Below, in pieces: positions 35,567-55,040 of a DNA stretch of 64,000 bases. Location of the stretch: contig JAHCBC010000001.1 of NCBI GenBank assembly GCA_019634595.1, positions 806,001 through 870,000 on the forward strand, read 5' to 3'. Each line of letters starts with the position of its first letter. The first letter of the stretch is position 1. Below the pieces are notes generated by a model, which was given only the letters and a program-made list of their open reading frames with translations, was not told the DNA's origin and made no database searches. The position numbers and the translations under genes were made by a program. The DNA is from Akkermansiaceae bacterium. GTDB taxonomy: Bacteria; Verrucomicrobiota; Verrucomicrobiia; Verrucomicrobiales; Akkermansiaceae.

Positions 35567-38500
35567 TCAGGCATCCAGCCGCAGGGCGGCTTTCTGGGCG
35601 GCGGTCTTCGCCTCGCCCTTATGGGCGTCGGACGCCGCGTCGGAGTGCGTGAGGCGCATGCCGACCGGCTTGGAAACTCCGAACTCCTCCATCGTCACGC
35701 CATACATGACATCGGCGCGGGCCATGGTCCGCTTCGAGTGGGTGACGATGATGAACTGGCTGCGGTCGATGAAGCGGTCCAGCACCTTGACGAAACGGTT
35801 GATGTTCGACTCGTCCAGTGGCGCGTCCAGCTCGTCCAGCACGCAGAACGGGCTGGGCTTGATCATGTAGATCGAGAACAGCAGGGCGACGGCGGTCATC
35901 GACCGCTCACCACCGGAAAGCAGCGTGATGGATTGGAGCTTCTTGCCGGGCGGCTTGGCGATGACTTCGATGCCGGATTCCAGCGGGTCGGACTCATCCA
36001 GCAACATGAGGTCCGCTTCGCCCTTCTCGCCGAAGAGTTCCTTGAACATGCCGCGGAAGTTCACCTTCACCTGGGCGAAGGTCTCCGCGAACAGGCGCTG
36101 GGTTTCCGTGTTGATCCGCTCGATCACCTCCAGCAACTCGGCCTTCGAGCTGACGAGATCCTCGTGCTGGTTGCGGAGGAAATTGTAACGCTCCTCCAGT
36201 TCCTCGAACTCTTCGATGGCATCGAGGTTCACCGGTCCCATCGCATCGAGGCGGCGCTTGATGTCGGTGACGATGCTTTCGACGAAGGACCAGTCCGGCT
36301 CACCGGTCATCTCGCCCGGAATCTCATCATCATCGGACTTGGTGGCGTCCACCACCATCACGGGCATTTCCTCTTCCTCCGACTCATCGCCGGAGACGAT
36401 GGTCTGGCGGCCACCGCGTGCCTGCATCGCCTTTTGCGAAGCGATGCTCGCCAGCAGCGCGTGGGCGTCAGGCTCGAAGGTGGCAAGCTCGATCTGGTAG
36501 CGCTCCTGGATCGCGTTGACGAGGCTCTCGATGCGAAGGTCCAGCTTGGTCGCGGCGACTTCCTCGCGGCCTTTCTGTTCGTTCACCTGCGCATGGTCCC
36601 GGCGGACGGCGGCGAGGGCGATCTCGGCGGCTTCGATGGCCTCCAACAACACGGCACGACCGGCGGCACGGGACTCGATTTCGACCTCCAGATCCTCCAC
36701 CTCGCAGCGATGGGTTTCGCATTCCTCGGCAAGGCGGGAGTTCTCCGCGATGGCGGCCTCGATCCGTTGGTCGAAGGAGGAAATCTCCGTCTCGCGGCGG
36801 ATGGCGATCTCGCGGAGCTCGGACAGGCGGGCCTCCATCGGCTTCTGCTGTTCCTCGGCGGATTGCTTCGCGCGGCGCTCCACGGCCAGTTCTGTGCGGA
36901 GCTGGTTCAGTTCCTCCGTGATTTCCTGCTCGCGGCGGGTGACGGAATCCGACTCCGACTGGAGGCGGCGGCTTTCCGTTTCCAGACCTTCCAGTCGCTC
37001 GCGGGCGGAGGCCAGTTCGGACTCCAGGTGCTCGCGGCCTTCAGCGGCGGCGCGTTCGCGGTTCTCCAGTTCACCACGCTCCCAGCGGATGTTCTCCAGC
37101 TTGGTTTCGAGGTTCTCCACCTCGCGGCTGGCGAGGCTGAGCTGGCCCTGGAGGGTGGAGAGATCCACCTTCTGGCGTTGCAGGCGTTCGCGGGAAACCT
37201 CGACTTCCTCTCTGAGTTGCTCGAGGCGGGCTTCCAGTTCGGCCACGCGGTTGCGGGCGGCTTCGTCGGCGGCGGTCAACGCGGCGACTTCCGCTTCCAG
37301 CGTGCGGACCTCGTTCTGGCGTTCCAGGAAGGAGGCATTTCCTTCAGGGGTCGCACCGCCGCGCAGCGTGCCTTCGCCGCCGAGGATCACTCCGGCGAGC
37401 GTGATGATGGTCACGCCCGGATGATTCGGGCGCAGGCGCAGGGCGGTGCTGAGGTTCGGGACGATGAGTGTTTTATCGAGCAGCTTCTCGATGATGGGGG
37501 TGACACGGCGGTCGGACTTCACCCGGTCCAGCGCCCATGCGGTGGCACCTTCCGGCAGTGCCTCCATCTGCGTGCCGCTGCTGTGGCCGATGAAGGTTTC
37601 CGGGAGGATGGCGGCGATGCCGAGACTCTTCTCCGTGAGCCGCTGGATGATGGCTTCCGCCACGTTCTGGTCTTGCACCAGCACCGTCTGGAGGTGGCTG
37701 CCGAGGGCGGCCTCGATGGCACGGGCGCAGGTGTTGTCCGCCTCGATGAAGGAGGCGAGGACGCCGTGGATGCCTGGCTTGAACTCATCCGGCTGGCCGA
37801 GACCTTTCAGTACGTTCTGCGTGCCTTTTTCAAAGCCCTCGCCGCTCTCGACGAGCTGGCGGACGGCCTGGAGACGGGCCGCGCGCTGGGCGAGGATCTT
37901 GTTCGACTCGGTGGCCGCGGTGCGGGCGGCGTCGAGGTCCCCGCGGGTGTGCTGGTAGCCGCGTTCCGCTGCCTGGAAAGTCTCCTCCAACTCCGCAAGC
38001 ATGGAGCCGGTCTGCTGGACCTCATCCGCGATGCGGGTCTGCTCACTGCGGGATTCCTCGATCGCGATGGTCTGGCGCTGCTCCTCATCCGCAAGCTGGC
38101 GGGCGCGTTCGCGCGTCCCTTCAAGCTGGGCGAGCGCGCTCTCGATCTTCGCCTGCATGGAGGCGATGATCGTCTGGGTGCGGTTCGCTTCGCCGCGGGT
38201 CTCGCGGAGCGTCGCCTCGATGCGGTTGCGCTCGTCACGCGTGCCTTGCGTCCGCTGCTCCTGTTCGGAAAGCAGGATCTCCTGCTCCGCGATGCGGCGG
38301 CTCAGTTGGTCGAGCGCCTCGTTGGCGGCGATGACGTCGAACTCCTGCTGCGCGAGCTTCTCGCGGGTGGCGGCGATGTCCTCGTGGTTCTGGCGGATGC
38401 GGGACTCAAGCTCGGCTTTCCTCTCCTCGTTGAAGGCCATCCGGCCGGATGCGGAGGTCAGCGCGTTGCGGTGCTCGTTGAGACGCTGGCGGAGTTCCGC

Positions 38501-39349
38501 GAGTTCGCCCTCGAACGTGCGGGCTTCGGAACGCGCTTCGGAAACGGCCTGCTCTTTCGCGGGGAGCTGCATCTGCAGCTCGGTGTCGCGGACTTCGAGG
38601 CCATGGATCGAGGTTTCCAGCTCGGCGCGTTCCGCGGAAAGCTCCACGAATTTCCGATGACCCAGATGGGTGTCCAGCACGCGGGTGTCCGCAGCCAGCG
38701 CCTGATAGCGGCGGGCCTTCGCCACTTGGCGGCGGAGGGAGTTCATCCGGCGCTCCTGCTCCGCCAGCACGTCGGAGACACGCAGCAGGTTGGCCTCCGT
38801 GTATTCCAGCTTGCGGAGCGCTTCCTTTTTCTCGCGCTTGAACTTGGTGATCCCGGCGGCTTCCTCGAAGACCGCGCGGCGTTCCTCCGGCTTGGAGGAA
38901 AGGATCTGGTCGATCTGGCCCTGCGCCATGATCGAGTAGGCGGTGCGGCCGATGCCAGTGTCCATGAGCATGTCATGGATGTCCTTCAGGCGGCACAGCG
39001 TGTTGTTGATCCGGTATTCGGAGCGGCCGTCGCGGAACACCCGGCGGGTGATGGATACCTCGTTGAAGTCCACCTTCAGCGACTCCTCGCAGTCCGCCAT
39101 GGTCAGCGTGACTTCCGCCATGCCCAGCGGCTTCCGTTTCTCGGTGCCGTTGAAGATGACGTCCGCCATCTCGCCGCCGCGCAGGGCCTTGGCGGAGGTC
39201 TCGCCGAGCACCCAGCGGATGGCATCGACGACGTTGGATTTGCCGCATCCGTTCGGACCGACGATGCCGGTCACGCCTTGGGCGAATTCGAACACGGTCT
39301 TGTCCGCGAACGACTTGAAGCCGTGGATCTCCAGTGTTTTTAAATACAT
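35567..39349 (-). CDS. smc: Chromosome segregation ATPase SMC
   Basis: 1260 residues with complete SMC layout: Walker A GIVGPNGCGKSN (about residue 30), long coiled coil, hinge around 520-640 (PGIHGVLASFIEAD), second coiled coil, ABC signature LLSGGERSMTAVALL and Walker B CVLDELDAPLDESN near the C-terminus. It dimerises and, with ScpA/ScpB (not in the window), organises and separates newly copied chromosomes. The gene stands alone. Confidence 0.97.
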   Translation of the reverse strand: MYLKTLEIHGFKSFADKTVFEFAQGVTGIVGPNGCGKSNVVDAIRWVLGETSAKALRGGEMADVIFNGTEKRKPLGMAEVTLTMADCEESLKVDFNEVSITRRVFRDGRSEYRINNTLCRLKDIHDMLMDTGIGRTAYSIMAQGQIDQILSSKPEERRAVFEEAAGITKFKREKKEALRKLEYTEANLLRVSDVLAEQERRMNSLRRQVAKARRYQALAADTRVLDTHLGHRKFVELSAERAELETSIHGLEVRDTELQMQLPAKEQAVSEARSEARTFEGELAELRQRLNEHRNALTSASGRMAFNEERKAELESRIRQNHEDIAATREKLAQQEFDVIAANEALDQLSRRIAEQEILLSEQEQRTQGTRDERNRIEATLRETRGEANRTQTIIASMQAKIESALAQLEGTRERARQLADEEQRQTIAIEESRSEQTRIADEVQQTGSMLAELEETFQAAERGYQHTRGDLDAARTAATESNKILAQRAARLQAVRQLVESGEGFEKGTQNVLKGLGQPDEFKPGIHGVLASFIEADNTCARAIEAALGSHLQTVLVQDQNVAEAIIQRLTEKSLGIAAILPETFIGHSSGTQMEALPEGATAWALDRVKSDRRVTPIIEKLLDKTLIVPNLSTALRLRPNHPGVTIITLAGVILGGEGTLRGGATPEGNASFLERQNEVRTLEAEVAALTAADEAARNRVAELEARLEQLREEVEVSRERLQRQKVDLSTLQGQLSLASREVENLETKLENIRWERGELENRERAAAEGREHLESELASARERLEGLETESRRLQSESDSVTRREQEITEELNQLRTELAVERRAKQSAEEQQKPMEARLSELREIAIRRETEISSFDQRIEAAIAENSRLAEECETHRCEVEDLEVEIESRAAGRAVLLEAIEAAEIALAAVRRDHAQVNEQKGREEVAATKLDLRIESLVNAIQERYQIELATFEPDAHALLASIASQKAMQARGGRQTIVSGDESEEEEMPVMVVDATKSDDDEIPGEMTGEPDWSFVESIVTDIKRRLDAMGPVNLDAIEEFEELEERYNFLRNQHEDLVSSKAELLEVIERINTETQRLFAETFAQVKVNFRGMFKELFGEKGEADLMLLDESDPLESGIEVIAKPPGKKLQSITLLSGGERSMTAVALLFSIYMIKPSPFCVLDELDAPLDESNINRFVKVLDRFIDRSQFIIVTHSKRTMARADVMYGVTMEEFGVSKPVGMRLTHSDAASDAHKGEAKTAAQKAALRLDA

Positions 39350-39604: not shown

Positions 39605-39679
39605 GCTGCCTTACTTCACTCCCGCGGCGGTCATCGCGGCGAACCACTTCGCGGCCATCTTTTCCTAGCCTTGGGGTTT
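39605..39679 (-). pseudogene. Left direct repeat: broken 3' end of an SGNH hydrolase gene
   Basis: 69 of 75 bases match 40905-40979, exactly 1300 bases apart. On the minus strand it would code for the last 21 residues of an SGNH hydrolase, ending AGVK and TAA, but a TAG replaces the Gln codon (CAG) near its start. Differences include silent ones, so it is not a fresh copy; it looks like a displaced gene end left by integration at this site. Confidence 0.8.
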
Positions 39680-39764: not shown

Positions 39765-40886
39765 ATGCAGCCTGAAGATCGATCGTTCTCGCTAAAAGAC
39801 CCTGTCGAAATGGAACGGCGGAAAGGAATGCTTTCGCATCCTCATATGGAGCCGCTTACCCAGTATTTGGAAAGACTGCGAAGTGATCGCGGGATTGGTC
39901 GCGAAACCCCTGATTTCGATCCTTGCGATGGAGGAATTCGTGCGAAACTCCTTTTTCTTCTGGAAGCTCCTGGACCTCGAGCTGTTGGGTCTTCGTTTGT
40001 TTCCCGGAATAATCCGGACCAGACGGCCAGAAACATGAACAGTCTGCTTCAAGATTCTCTGTTGCCGAGGGCCGACACGATTCTCTGGAACATAGTTCCT
40101 TGGTATGTGGGCAACGGCAGGAAAATCAGAAAGGTGACTCCGGAGGATATTGAGCAGGCGACTCCCTATCTGAGTGAACTTGTGGCACTACTTCCGAATC
40201 TGGAAGGGATTGTTCTGGTTGGTAAGAACGCCCAATCTGCCCGGAACATCATCTCATGTGTCACCAACGCGCGGATATTCGAGGCACCGCATCCAAGCCC
40301 CCAAGCGTTCAATGTCTATCCATACAAACGGGAGGAGGCTCGGGCTGTTTTTCTTGAGGCCTCCGCATTCATCAAGTCTCGCCAGAAAGGTCCTGCCTTA
40401 TCCGAAGCAAAACCTACCTTTCCTGCGATACGATTGCTTCATCAAAGGATAGGCTCCGTCAGCAATTCACATGTGGGGGCCGATTTCGAAGATCTCGCCC
40501 GAAAATTCTTTGCCCTGCAAGGGATTGACCTTCTTCCAAGGTTTCCACTTGGGATTGGGTTGTCTGATTTGAAGGGGATTCATCGCTTTGATCTCGGTTC
40601 CGAGTCCCCGAAGATCATTGTTGAGTGTAAATCACACCGCTGGACTGCTTCGGGTTTGGTGCCTAGTGCCAAGATGGCCGTTTGGAACGAAGCCATGTAT
40701 TACTTTCTCCTGGCCCCTCGTGACTACCGGAAGATTTTTTTCGTCCTCCATGATCGGAGAAAGGGGAATGGAGAAAGCCTGTTATCCTATTACCGGCGCA
40801 CCCGTCATCATCTGATTCCTGAGGGGGTGGAATTCATCGAATGGGACGAGTCCGCCAACGGAGTGGTGGGAATTGAGAGATCCTGA
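39765..40886 (+). CDS. Uracil-DNA-glycosylase-like domain fused to a PD-(D/E)xK nuclease domain
   Basis: 373 residues. Residues about 25-205 are UDG-superfamily: LEAPGPRAVG (E67-A-P-G70, as in the GEAPG motif of families 4/5), ILWNIVPWYVG, GIVLVGKNAQ, and PHPSPQ (H176). Residues about 230-340 are a restriction-type nuclease: E242 in ADFEDLARKFF, D276 in HRFDLG, and E287-C-K289, giving D-x10-E-x-K. One protein thus may sense a base change and cut the DNA. GC is near 47-50% against well over 60% around it, and it sits between 75-bp direct repeats, both signs of transfer. A defence or repair role is inferred; stand-alone UDGs of this subfamily are common, but I do not know this fusion as described. 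Confidence 0.75.
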   Translation: MQPEDRSFSLKDPVEMERRKGMLSHPHMEPLTQYLERLRSDRGIGRETPDFDPCDGGIRAKLLFLLEAPGPRAVGSSFVSRNNPDQTARNMNSLLQDSLLPRADTILWNIVPWYVGNGRKIRKVTPEDIEQATPYLSELVALLPNLEGIVLVGKNAQSARNIISCVTNARIFEAPHPSPQAFNVYPYKREEARAVFLEASAFIKSRQKGPALSEAKPTFPAIRLLHQRIGSVSNSHVGADFEDLARKFFALQGIDLLPRFPLGIGLSDLKGIHRFDLGSESPKIIVECKSHRWTASGLVPSAKMAVWNEAMYYFLLAPRDYRKIFFVLHDRRKGNGESLLSYYRRTRHHLIPEGVEFIEWDESANGVVGIERS

Positions 40887-40904: not shown

Positions 40905-40979
40905 GCTGCCTCACTTCACTCCCGCAGCGGTCATCCCGGCGAACCACTTCGAGGCCATCTTTTCCTGGCCTTGGGGGTT
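40905..40979 (-). repeat. Right direct repeat: 3' end of the intact SGNH hydrolase gene
   Basis: Partner of 39605-39679 (69/75 identical, same orientation). Here the sequence is the functional end of the SGNH gene including its TGA stop. The 1225 bases between the repeats hold only the UDG-nuclease gene. Confidence 0.85.
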
Positions 40980-41624
40980 CGGATGCGCCCAGTCGAAGGT
41001 GTCCGTGCCCGGGAGGGCCGGATTCTCCACCCAGCCTTTGTAATGATCGATGGCCACCACCGGTGAGTCCGCCGTGGAGAGACGCTCCGCCATGCCTGCG
41101 AAGAGGGGGCGGAATTCCACCGATGCGCCACCGTTGAATGCGAGCTGGCCAACGAACACCTTCACCTTCGGGTTCCGCACCCGCAGTTCACGGACCAGAT
41201 CCTCAAGTGGCGCGATGATCTCCGCCGCCGGATCCGTCGTCTTCTGGTCATTCGTGCCGAGATGGACCAGGACCACGTCCGGTGTGCCGATCTGTGGCAA
41301 CGCGGCCTTCACCTTCGTCACCACGAAGGCGGTCTTCGCTCCATAGTAGCCCTCATGGTCCGCATCAAACGGGCGGCCCTCCGCCGTGTCCGGCCACGTT
41401 GCCGAGGCATTGAGACCTTTGGTGCGCGTGCCGATGAAGTCGAAGGCGATGCCCGCTTCGGCCAGCTTCCGTTGCAGGGGCAGCCGGTAGGTGTATTCCT
41501 CCGGCTTGTTGCCGCCCTGGGTGATGGAGTCACCCATGCAAAGGATCTTCAACGGCTCCGCGGCGGACAGACCGCTTGCGAGGAAGGCGAAGGACAGGGC
41601 CAATCTGATCGAGGAACCGATCAT
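40911..41624 (-). CDS. SGNH/GDSL-family hydrolase, exported
   Basis: 237 residues from the ATG at 41624, which overlaps the ROK gene stop by ATGA. Signal peptide to about SAAEP. Block I GDSIT (Ser33 nucleophile), block III GTND, and the catalytic Asp/His in DWAHPN near the C-terminus. Such enzymes remove acyl groups from sugars, lipids or polysaccharides. Coupling to a sugar kinase hints at carbohydrate deacetylation outside followed by sugar phosphorylation inside. Its last 69 bases recur at 39605 as a broken copy. Confidence 0.88.
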   Translation of the reverse strand: MIGSSIRLALSFAFLASGLSAAEPLKILCMGDSITQGGNKPEEYTYRLPLQRKLAEAGIAFDFIGTRTKGLNASATWPDTAEGRPFDADHEGYYGAKTAFVVTKVKAALPQIGTPDVVLVHLGTNDQKTTDPAAEIIAPLEDLVRELRVRNPKVKVFVGQLAFNGGASVEFRPLFAGMAERLSTADSPVVAIDHYKGWVENPALPGTDTFDWAHPNPQGQEKMASKWFAGMTAAGVK

Positions 41625-42640
41625 TGGAAGAGTTCGCGCGCCGTGTAGGCCATGCCGATGGCGGCCGCGCCATCGCCACCGATGGCCCATTCGAAACGGG
41701 TCGTCTCCTTCTCAGGATCCAGCGGGCTGTGGCAATAGACCGGCCAGGCACGGTCCTTGAAGCCTTCCTTGATCCAGTCCATGTAGTCGTCACGGAAAGA
41801 GGACTCAGCCAGACCACCACCGATCACCACGAGGCCGGGGTCGAAGGTCCGGACAAGATCCGCGATGGCATAGCCGAGGATGAAGCCCTGTTGCTTGAAG
41901 ATGGAAATGGCCAGCGCGTCCCCTTGGGCGGCGAAGTCACGCAGGCGGAATGCCTTCTCCTCGATCGGCGGATTCCCTTCGTTGAGCGGGTGGCCCGCGT
42001 TCTCCGGTTTGGCGAGTTCAATGCCCACACGGCGGCGCAGCGCGACGAGCGAGACCCATGCCTCCGCGCAGCCCTTCAGGCCGCAGGAGCATTTCGGCAG
42101 TTCGCCATCATCCTCGCGGAAAGGAACGCTGATGTGGCCCACCTCGAGCGCGAGGCCGTTCATGCCTTCGAAACTGCGGCCACCCGGAAGGACGAAGCCA
42201 CCACCCAGGCCGGTGCCGGGTGCGACGAGCAGCAGGCTGCCGAGGTGCTTGTTGCGCAGCGCGTATTCTCCCAGTGCGGCGGCATTGCCGTCGTTGGTCA
42301 TGAAAACGGGGATGCCCGTGCGATCGGAAAGTTTGCCGCGGATGTCGGTGCCCACCCAGTCCTCGCCGAGGTTCGCGCGGCCCCAGATCACGCCATCGCT
42401 GCTCGGTGCGGGGACGTCCAGACCGATGCCGCGGATCTTGTCGCGGGGGATGCCTGCGTTCGCCGCCAGTTCGTCGAGAGCCTTGTCCAGTTGGCCGAAG
42501 GTGGATTCGTAGCCGTCCTTCACCTGGCTCCGTACTTCCACGTATGGTCCTACCTGTTCCCCCTGGGAATCGACGATGATGGATTTCACGGTGGTGCCGC
42601 CGATATCGAGGCCGACAAAGTGGGAGGTGGGATCGGACAT
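41621..42640 (-). CDS. ROK-family sugar kinase (glucokinase-like)
   Basis: 339 residues. ATP-binding GLDIGGTTVKS, sugar-site NDGNAAALGE, GTGLGGGFV and the ROK zinc motif CSCGLKGCAEAW (C-x-C-G-x2-G-C-x-E) are all present, and no DNA-binding domain precedes them, so it is an enzyme and not a repressor. Likely phosphorylates glucose or an N-acetyl or related sugar at O6. First gene of a two-gene operon with the SGNH hydrolase; divergent from the amidase gene. Confidence 0.92.
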   Translation of the reverse strand: MSDPTSHFVGLDIGGTTVKSIIVDSQGEQVGPYVEVRSQVKDGYESTFGQLDKALDELAANAGIPRDKIRGIGLDVPAPSSDGVIWGRANLGEDWVGTDIRGKLSDRTGIPVFMTNDGNAAALGEYALRNKHLGSLLLVAPGTGLGGGFVLPGGRSFEGMNGLALEVGHISVPFREDDGELPKCSCGLKGCAEAWVSLVALRRRVGIELAKPENAGHPLNEGNPPIEEKAFRLRDFAAQGDALAISIFKQQGFILGYAIADLVRTFDPGLVVIGGGLAESSFRDDYMDWIKEGFKDRAWPVYCHSPLDPEKETTRFEWAIGGDGAAAIGMAYTARELFQ

Positions 42641-53509: not shown

Positions 53510-53600
53510 CGGCGAAAGGGGTTAGCTTCCAGATTATCCGATTTCCGTCGGTTTGGCGATGGTGATCTTTACAGGCCGGGAGGGAAGTCTGCTTCTTCGA

Positions 53601-54092
53601 TTATGGGTTGGTTTCGATGAGCTTTCTTTTGGCTTCCTTCATCGGCTCGTCATACGATGGATAGAATGCCTCCATCTGTGTGATCCTATGCCATTCCGTC
53701 CGCGCATTGGGTAAGGCCCCCGTGGCCTCATATGCTTCTGCAAGAAAAAGCCGGGCATCAGCCTCGCCGTAATGGTGCTTGAGTTTCACCCCACGCTCCA
53801 GCTCGCAGACAGCCTCGTCGAATCTCCCTGCTTCGAGCAGCAGGCGTCCGAGTGCGATCACAGGTCGAGGGTCTTCCGGATCGTATTCGGCTGCCGATTT
53901 GTAGGCCGCCTCAGCCTCGCCAATTTGCCCAAGAGCTTCGGCGGAAGCCGCCAACCAGTGGTAACCTTCGGTCCATTTCGGGCACATTTGGGTAACCTGA
54001 ATAAATAAGCTGCGGGCGATTTCATAGTCCGGAGGCTCAGCGAAGAATCGCTCATGGCCGTCGCGCAACGCCTTCATTGCATCCGGAGTCAT
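53601..54092 (-). CDS. TPR-repeat protein
   Basis: 163 residues of helical hairpins: at least two good TPRs (EGYHWLAASAEALGQIGEAEAAY; PRPVIALGRLLLEAGRFDEAV), no signal peptide. TPRs bind other proteins. Its start overlaps the stop of the membrane protein gene upstream by 4 bases, so the two are cotranscribed. Lower GC than the Bat genes. Specific role unknown. Confidence 0.8.
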   Translation of the reverse strand: MTPDAMKALRDGHERFFAEPPDYEIARSLFIQVTQMCPKWTEGYHWLAASAEALGQIGEAEAAYKSAAEYDPEDPRPVIALGRLLLEAGRFDEAVCELERGVKLKHHYGEADARLFLAEAYEATGALPNARTEWHRITQMEAFYPSYDEPMKEAKRKLIETNP

Positions 54093-54598
54093 GATGGGCG
54101 AAGAATTGATTTATCCTTCGAAGGATGTTGAAATAGATCGTTATCTTTCTTTTCCGTGAACGCCAGACGGCCGCGATGGCCCAAAAGAAGCAATCCCGGG
54201 ATCGCCAGAACCACGAAATCGACGACTGCGAGTGGAAGGAACGCCGGATGGGTATGATCAATTCCCCATGGCGCGAGCCTCAGCTTCAATCCTGGAAAGA
54301 TGAGTGCGATGGCAAACATGGTTCCGGCAATGATGGGGATGGTTATGGCCCATTTTCGGGCCGCGGGAATTCCTCGCTTCAGGCATGATCCCAACCAGAA
54401 GCAGATGACGAAAAAGAAGGTGATGGCAATGTATCCTGTCCAGAAGTAGATCCCGAGAGCGATGGCGGAGCATGCCAGGTCAATCCAGCCAAGGATCCTG
54501 TAATAGCTGCCGGTGAGGGTGCGAACGTGGTTAGGCTCTTCGCCGCCCTTTCCAAGCGGAGCGTGCGTTGAATCAACTGTTATCGGGCTGGAACTCAT
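54089..54598 (-). CDS. Membrane protein of unknown function
   Basis: 169 residues with four predicted membrane helices (GWIDLACSAIALGIYFW; AITFFFVICFWLG; AITIPIIAGTMFAIALIF; AVVDFVVLAIPGLLLLG) and hydrophilic ends. No family recognised. Paired by a 4-base overlap with the TPR gene, which may be its soluble partner. Lower GC than the surroundings. Confidence 0.75.
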   Translation of the reverse strand: MSSSPITVDSTHAPLGKGGEEPNHVRTLTGSYYRILGWIDLACSAIALGIYFWTGYIAITFFFVICFWLGSCLKRGIPAARKWAITIPIIAGTMFAIALIFPGLKLRLAPWGIDHTHPAFLPLAVVDFVVLAIPGLLLLGHRGRLAFTEKKDNDLFQHPSKDKSILRPS

Positions 54599-54704
54599 CG
54601 GTCGGAAAAATTTCAGATGGCGGGAATCTCTCTTCCGAGCCTTGGAGCGTGATTGAAATTCGAAGCGGAGGAGACATCACCTGACAACCAATTCAGCCGG
54701 AATA

Positions 54705-54923
54705 TCATTTTACCGTGCGCGGACCATCAAACTTCGATTTGCGGAAATGGATCAACGCGATGACAGGGAAAACAAAGGGGATAAAAAATGACAGGAGAAG
54801 CCACACGGGAACCTCCCAACCCTTTCCCCTCTTGAGGATCGCATGGGCCGCGAGCGCGAATAGCACCAGCATGATCAAAAAATTGACGGGTTGCGCCACC
54901 ATCACGGCATGATCTTCTTTCAT
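54705..54923 (-). CDS. Small membrane protein
   Basis: 72 residues, two hydrophobic segments (VNFLIMLVLFALAAHAIL; VPVWLLLSFFIPFVFPVIALI) with a basic end. Start may instead be the internal ATG at 54902. No family recognised; similar two-helix proteins are common next to the other small membrane genes of this stretch. Confidence 0.6.
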   Translation of the reverse strand: MKEDHAVMVAQPVNFLIMLVLFALAAHAILKRGKGWEVPVWLLLSFFIPFVFPVIALIHFRKSKFDGPRTVK

Positions 54924-55040
54924 TCCGATCCTTATAAAGAAGATCTCGACCCATCTTCAACCATATTTCCTGGCCGGTTGATATCAGTTTTGGGTTCATC
55001 ACTTCCCATTTCATCCGCATCTGATCGTGGGCCGGAACAG

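Follow-up and report, generated by a model that had tools for sequence, protein, structure and literature searches.

The window analysed here, 64,000 nucleotides of an Akkermansiaceae genome, holds a gene at 39765-40886 on the plus strand that raises a question: what would a bacterium do with a single protein that is part uracil-DNA glycosylase (UDG) and part nuclease? A sequence-only reading had described one 373-residue frame joining a UDG-like domain to a PD-(D/E)xK nuclease, and had proposed a mobile defence gene that recognises altered bases and cleaves the DNA carrying them. The frame is borne out: the ORF encodes 373 amino acids without an internal stop. Its start codon is supported by the stand-alone UDG of a related locus (L003), which begins MKPEDEPYAL where the fusion protein begins MQPEDRSFSL. 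The Pfam match, a full-length AlphaFold model and alignments divide the product into a UDG-superfamily domain (residues 1-205; 39765-40379), a linker (residues 208-225; 40386-40439) and an Mrr-like PD-(D/E)xK nuclease domain (residues 226-373; 40440-40883), all on the plus strand, and we are highly confident that the gene is a UDG fused to a nuclease of this type. The linker falls mostly within a low-confidence, flexible stretch of the model, and it is in this region that stand-alone relatives of either half end or begin. The fusion protein matched none of the families in the PADLOC defence models, and as a single query it found no match in a PDB sequence search.

Residues 56-184 match the Pfam UDG family (PF03167) with 37.5 bits against a gathering cut-off of 24.3 (E=3.1e-9), and in the full-length model residues 1-205 mostly have a pLDDT above 90. 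The model of this half superimposes on UdgX (6l6s) with a Z of 19.3 and an rmsd of 2.2 over 167 aligned residues, and on the family-4 UDG of T. maritima (1l9g) with a Z of 18.0, confirming that residues 1-205 form a UDG fold. In a PDB sequence search, a profile of the UDG half reached weakly to family-4 UDGs (E 0.003); against the family-4 profile TIGR00758 the fusion protein scored 19.3 bits, below the cut-off of 125.3. Both motifs reported for this half lie at the residues given: motif A, E67-A-P-G70 (39963-39974, plus strand), and motif B, H176-P-S178 (40290-40298, plus strand), each invariant across 11 aligned UDG rows. Motif A of family-4 UDGs reads GE(A/G)PG (PMC10359453). The closest solved folds, those of family-4 UDG and UdgX (1l9g, 6ail, 4zby), have in common with the fusion a GE(A/G)PG-like motif A, an HP motif B and a pocket Phe and Asn. 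The fusion differs from them in its motif A, LEAPG rather than GEAPG, in its attached nuclease and in having no conserved 4Fe-4S cysteines. Two cysteines occur in its UDG domain and 0-5 in relatives, none of them in an invariant or nearly invariant column, so no Fe-S cluster is expected in this half.

Which base would such a pocket accept? By alignment to the T. maritima enzyme, F78 (39996-39998, plus strand) falls at the base-stacking position of family-4 UDGs (F55 in S. tokodaii UDG) and is the residue expected to stack; it is invariant in the 11-row alignment and near-invariant in a wider set. N109, also invariant in the 11 rows, lies within the motif W108-N-I-V-P-W-Y114 (40086-40106, plus strand) at the position of the uracil-reading Asn (N82 in S. 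tokodaii UDG; PMC11078745). In Brig1, a UDG-superfamily protein that restricts phage, the equivalents of F55 and N82 are Tyr121 and Glu147 (PMC11078745). Judged by these residues, the pocket of the fusion is of the uracil type and not of the Brig1 (glucosyl-hmC) type, a comparison that runs indirectly, through the family-4 alignment and the F55/N82-to-Y121/E147 mapping in PMC11078745 rather than through Brig1's own sequence. The pocket residues make uracil or a close analogue the likely substrate, and a modified phage base a correspondingly less likely one. What had been proposed, recognition of altered bases followed by cleavage, thus keeps its domains and catalytic sets, whereas the branch that invoked modified phage DNA loses ground. 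Membership of the Brig1 group had been raised by a relative on a Paracoccus plasmid (L064 2948-8540), which directly follows an ADP-ribosylglycohydrolase gene and has a SIR2 defence gene nearby; ADP-ribosyl glycohydrolase and SIR2 neighbours are also reported for Brig1 (PMC11078745). For the fusion it was rejected on F78 and N109 versus Tyr121 and Glu147.

Residues 226-373 were assigned as an Mrr-like PD-(D/E)xK domain, on the strength of sequence profiles and topology and not of a structural match. The proposed active site is again where it was said to be, comprising the helix-A acidic residue E242 (40488-40490), the catalytic Asp D276 (40590-40592) and the catalytic E-x-K, E287-C288-K289 (40623-40631), all on the plus strand. 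E242, D276, E287 and K289 are invariant in the fusion and five homologues, from Rubritalea, Roseibacillus, another genome of the same order, a Methylobacter plasmid and an archaeal Haloplanus plasmid; a sixth and more distant aligned ORF (L013) has lost the E-x-K. The stand-alone homologues are ~150 residues long, with identities of 65% in Rubritalea, 62% in Roseibacillus and 55% on the Methylobacter plasmid. The one from another genome of the order lies at a contig end, and the Haloplanus gene is a distant relative. No UDG was seen beside the nuclease at L005, L006 and L031, and L041 sits at a contig end. At L005 (626-1717, Rubritalea) the UDG-less nuclease gene lies 40 bp after a weakly BRCT-like gene and beside a phage-type integrase; the BRCT-like neighbour is possibly another lesion-sensing partner.

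A Pfam scan for Mrr_cat (PF04471) gave no match for the fusion and sub-threshold matches for its relatives (E 0.016-0.028). When a profile of the nuclease half was compared by hhalign with a profile of eight Mrr_cat domains, the probability was 86-88% and the score 40.8; controls reached at most 19.7 in 200 column shuffles and 11.2 with the alignment reversed, and a UDG control gave a probability of 0.7%. With the Pfam match of the first half, this places both parts of the claimed two-domain make-up above chance. Like Mrr, the nuclease half has a PD-(D/E)xK pattern with a helix-A Glu, an Asp and x-x-K; E242 aligns with the FE of Mrr_cat, and E287-C288-K289 with its Q-x-K. It differs in having ECK instead of the Q(C/A)K of most compared Mrr rows and in an extra conserved W-T/V...P-x-A-K region, and the fusion carries a UDG domain in place of the Mrr_N winged helix. 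In the full-length model the nuclease half runs helix, a low-confidence stretch, strand, helix, strand, helix, strand, strand. Modelled alone it was poor (pLDDT 49.9), and its Foldseek/VIA-align matches were uninformative, to mixed alpha/beta proteins (small GTPases, flavodoxins). The nuclease profile returned chance matches only in a PDB sequence search.

The low GC noted earlier holds: the gene has 51% GC and a GC3 of 0.52 versus 0.85 and 0.79 in the flanking genes, which marks it as foreign. The flanking repeats are present as well, in the form of a 75-bp direct pair, 92% identical and found as only two full copies in the whole genome. The left copy lies at 39605-39679; the right copy, at 40905-40979, is the 3' end of an SGNH-hydrolase-type gene (40911-41690, minus strand). 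Between them is a single 1.2-kb low-GC stretch that holds only the fusion gene and no recombinase, and the arrangement looks like an insertion at a gene's 3' end. The fusion gene is horizontally acquired, and it is rare and patchy in its phylum. No close match to the SGNH gene was found in 60 other genomes of the genus, and a promoter and terminator scan gave nothing above chance. On the other side lies a gene for the chromosome-segregation protein SMC (35567-39349, minus strand; both flanking genes were named from their own sequences). A second low-GC dip occurs at 53600-54600 (0.52 for 54001-55000), with two small minus-strand ORFs for a TPR-like protein and a membrane protein.

Is the joining of these two domains meaningful? 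A pattern-based, non-exhaustive scan of ~85,000 species genomes, viral contigs, phages, plasmids and sets of relatives' genomes found the exact fusion once. No relative with the same domain order was found, and no relative of the whole protein or of the nuclease domain turned up in phage records or viral contigs. The two domains do, however, recur as neighbours. In Methylobacter sp. YRD-M1 (NZ_CP091425, L016) a UDG gene follows the nuclease gene in the same orientation after a gap of 31 bp, the reverse of the fusion order, and both catalytic sets are kept in this operon as in the fusion. In a 32-row UDG tree, the fusion's UDG groups with those of L003 and L004 (support 98/96), and the Methylobacter UDG falls in another supported group; the two as sisters were rejected by the AU test (p=1.5e-74, 71 log-likelihood units worse), for a pair chosen after the tree had been seen. 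So either the nuclease became joined to two UDG lineages separately, in one case as a fusion and in the other as an operon, or it swapped one UDG partner for another. One nuclease paired with two different UDG lineages makes the link look functional rather than accidental. A recent chance fusion without joint function, or a decaying gene, might be suspected from the single occurrence of the fusion, the lack of a relative in the same order and the degenerate flanking repeat. Yet the frame has neither stops nor frameshifts, both active sites are intact, the junction joins two complete genes cleanly, and an operon with another UDG lineage shows the same pairing; we give an accident very little credence.

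In Methylobacter the pair is flanked by IS256 copies, and Gabija GajA/GajB (E about 1e-230), PDC-S19 and PDC-M30B are found within ~11 kb of it. Nucleases of several kinds adjoin other UDG relatives: VRR-NUC in Binatota, EVE-HNH in Cupriavidus, GIY-YIG together with Gabija in Rhodococcus, an HNH-like ORF (weak, E 0.016) with two Mrr_cat genes on a contig from a viral collection (L021), DUF6998 in Cereibacter, whose sequence we read as REase-like in character, and a degenerate REase-like ORF in Rubrivivax. The motif A of the Rhodococcus UDG has diverged to D-N-P-S, so its activity is doubtful. At the Rubrivivax locus (L013 185-1098) the nuclease-like ORF lacking E-x-K stands just ahead of a UDG gene with a broken-looking frame, and this may be a decayed pair or an inactive sensor. 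Support for a mobile defence gene thus comes from relatives, through the Gabija systems close to the Methylobacter and Rhodococcus loci and the Mrr and HNH genes of L021, whereas the fusion itself sits among housekeeping genes and not in a defence island. Nuclease-linked rows are scattered among nuclease-less rows in the UDG tree, and with ~33 loci inspected, chosen non-randomly and without a background rate, nuclease adjacency should be read as a pattern rather than as a statistic. Many UDG relatives have no nuclease neighbour, and many stand alone or in sulfite cassettes; the UDG family as a whole is not restricted to defence.

Some of the genes next to related UDGs, those of Mrr and EVE-HNH type, are similar to modification-dependent restriction enzymes, and the UDG fold is a natural base-flipping reader. 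The fusion might by this token be a type IV-like enzyme, in which the UDG fold replaces the usual reader of Mrr and EVE-HNH enzymes and only recognises and flips a modified base, with the nuclease cutting nearby and excision unneeded. A pure reader would, however, have no need of the motif A Glu, the pocket Asn and the motif B His, all of which are intact and conserved, and we consider a reader of this kind improbable. With the catalytic residues of both halves preserved, two chemical steps are favoured over a reader joined to a nuclease.

The UDG family to which the first half belongs also has a distinct clade (support 100/98) that is found in plasmid sulfite cassettes (L037, L038, L039, L043, L044, L046 and L047), together with TDT (SSU1-like) transporters, molybdopterin oxidoreductases or the asrABC sulfite reductase, and often with the fluoride genes crcB/ppa/eno. 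L045 is counted with this group though a sulfite gene is lacking within 5 kb of it, and L040 belongs to the clade without a sulfite gene. The lesion that bisulfite makes, 5,6-dihydrouracil-6-sulfonate, is removed inefficiently by ordinary Ung (PMC3521656), and the UDGs of this clade may be specialised for it.

Two such chemical steps could also serve the host. Uracil excision and incision would then amount to base excision repair of deaminated cytosine by one polypeptide, the Mrr-like domain replacing an AP endonuclease and the host genome being protected. The uracil-type pocket of the UDG family is in keeping with repair, as are the several relatives that stand alone in ordinary chromosomal settings and the sister clade in sulfite-detoxification cassettes, bisulfite being a mutagen that deaminates cytosine (PMC3521656). 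Against it, the gene is foreign and rare, the Methylobacter pair lies inside a Gabija defence island, and three further UDG-superfamily matches are present in the host, for which the fusion is thus not the sole repair UDG. Mrr-type nucleases, moreover, are restriction enzymes rather than repair enzymes, which also counts against repair. On balance we find repair unlikely, though deserving of some weight. One of the host's other matches (C3:144885-145364) lies within a 569-residue open frame that is possibly another UDG fusion.

We favour defence over repair, and infer it, because the gene is foreign and rare, because the host has other UDGs and because relatives lie in defence islands; that no relative of the fusion turned up in phage genomes counts against it. 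We see an even chance that the protein acts in uracil restriction, excising and then cutting, most likely against foreign DNA. The UDG-fold domain would flip out uracil or one of its close analogues and excise it to give an abasic site, and the tethered Mrr-like, metal-dependent nuclease would cut the sugar-phosphate backbone there or close by, so that a lesion open to repair becomes a strand break. Its most likely targets would be uracil-bearing foreign DNA, such as phages or elements with deoxyuridine or deaminated cytosine. We infer excision, cleavage, their order, the substrate and the defensive role alike. A broader proposal, that this is a uracil-dependent restriction endonuclease and belongs to a larger class, so far undescribed, in which WNIVPWY-type UDGs take on interchangeable nucleases (Mrr-like, VRR-NUC, HNH, GIY-YIG, DUF6998), we put forward tentatively, at somewhat less than an even chance.

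Base excision that restricts phage has precedents in Brig1 (PMC11078745), in the PabI family and in Ung acting on uracil-DNA phages (PMC10273834). Brig1 (~29 kDa) resembles the fusion in its UDG-superfamily domain, its mobile or defence loci and, as proposed for the fusion, a scheme in which base excision comes first. It differs in the two pocket residues (Tyr121 and Glu147 for Phe78 and Asn109) and in its target, alpha-glucosyl-hmC; it is also described as primarily a monofunctional glycosylase, and no attached nuclease has been described (PMC11078745). The Brig3-BapA operon (PMC13160076) likewise pairs a defence glycosylase with a partner gene, as the UDG-nuclease operon does, but Brig3 resembles the alkyladenine glycosylase AAG and targets 5hmC, and its partner removes glucose and is not a nuclease. 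A similar sequence of events is known from the PabI family, in which base excision followed by strand breakage serves as restriction and is enhanced by AP endonucleases (PMC10273834); these enzymes differ in having a HALFPIPE fold, sequence-specific adenine excision, an intrinsic AP lyase and a block by methylation of the target base. A figure legend of the DefensePredictor study (PMC13092281) names a UDG domain in a list of defence systems that are predicted but unvalidated. In the open-access literature, to which our search was confined, we came upon no account of a UDG-nuclease fusion. Immunity by base excision is already known from Brig1, Brig3 and the PabI family; what is new is a UDG with an Mrr-like nuclease of its own, and the recurrence of UDG-nuclease pairs.

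Brig-type defences stop at the abasic site, and the break is left to chemistry or to host enzymes. If the uracil-restriction reading is true, the fusion would be a self-contained restriction enzyme that excises and cuts at uracil or its analogues and that would do without a methyltransferase, since its target base is absent from normal DNA. Such an enzyme might also serve as a reagent for mapping or cutting DNA at uracil. For the widespread and functionally unassigned family of UDGs to which its first half belongs, the sulfite-linked clade included, the reading would provide a testable prediction.
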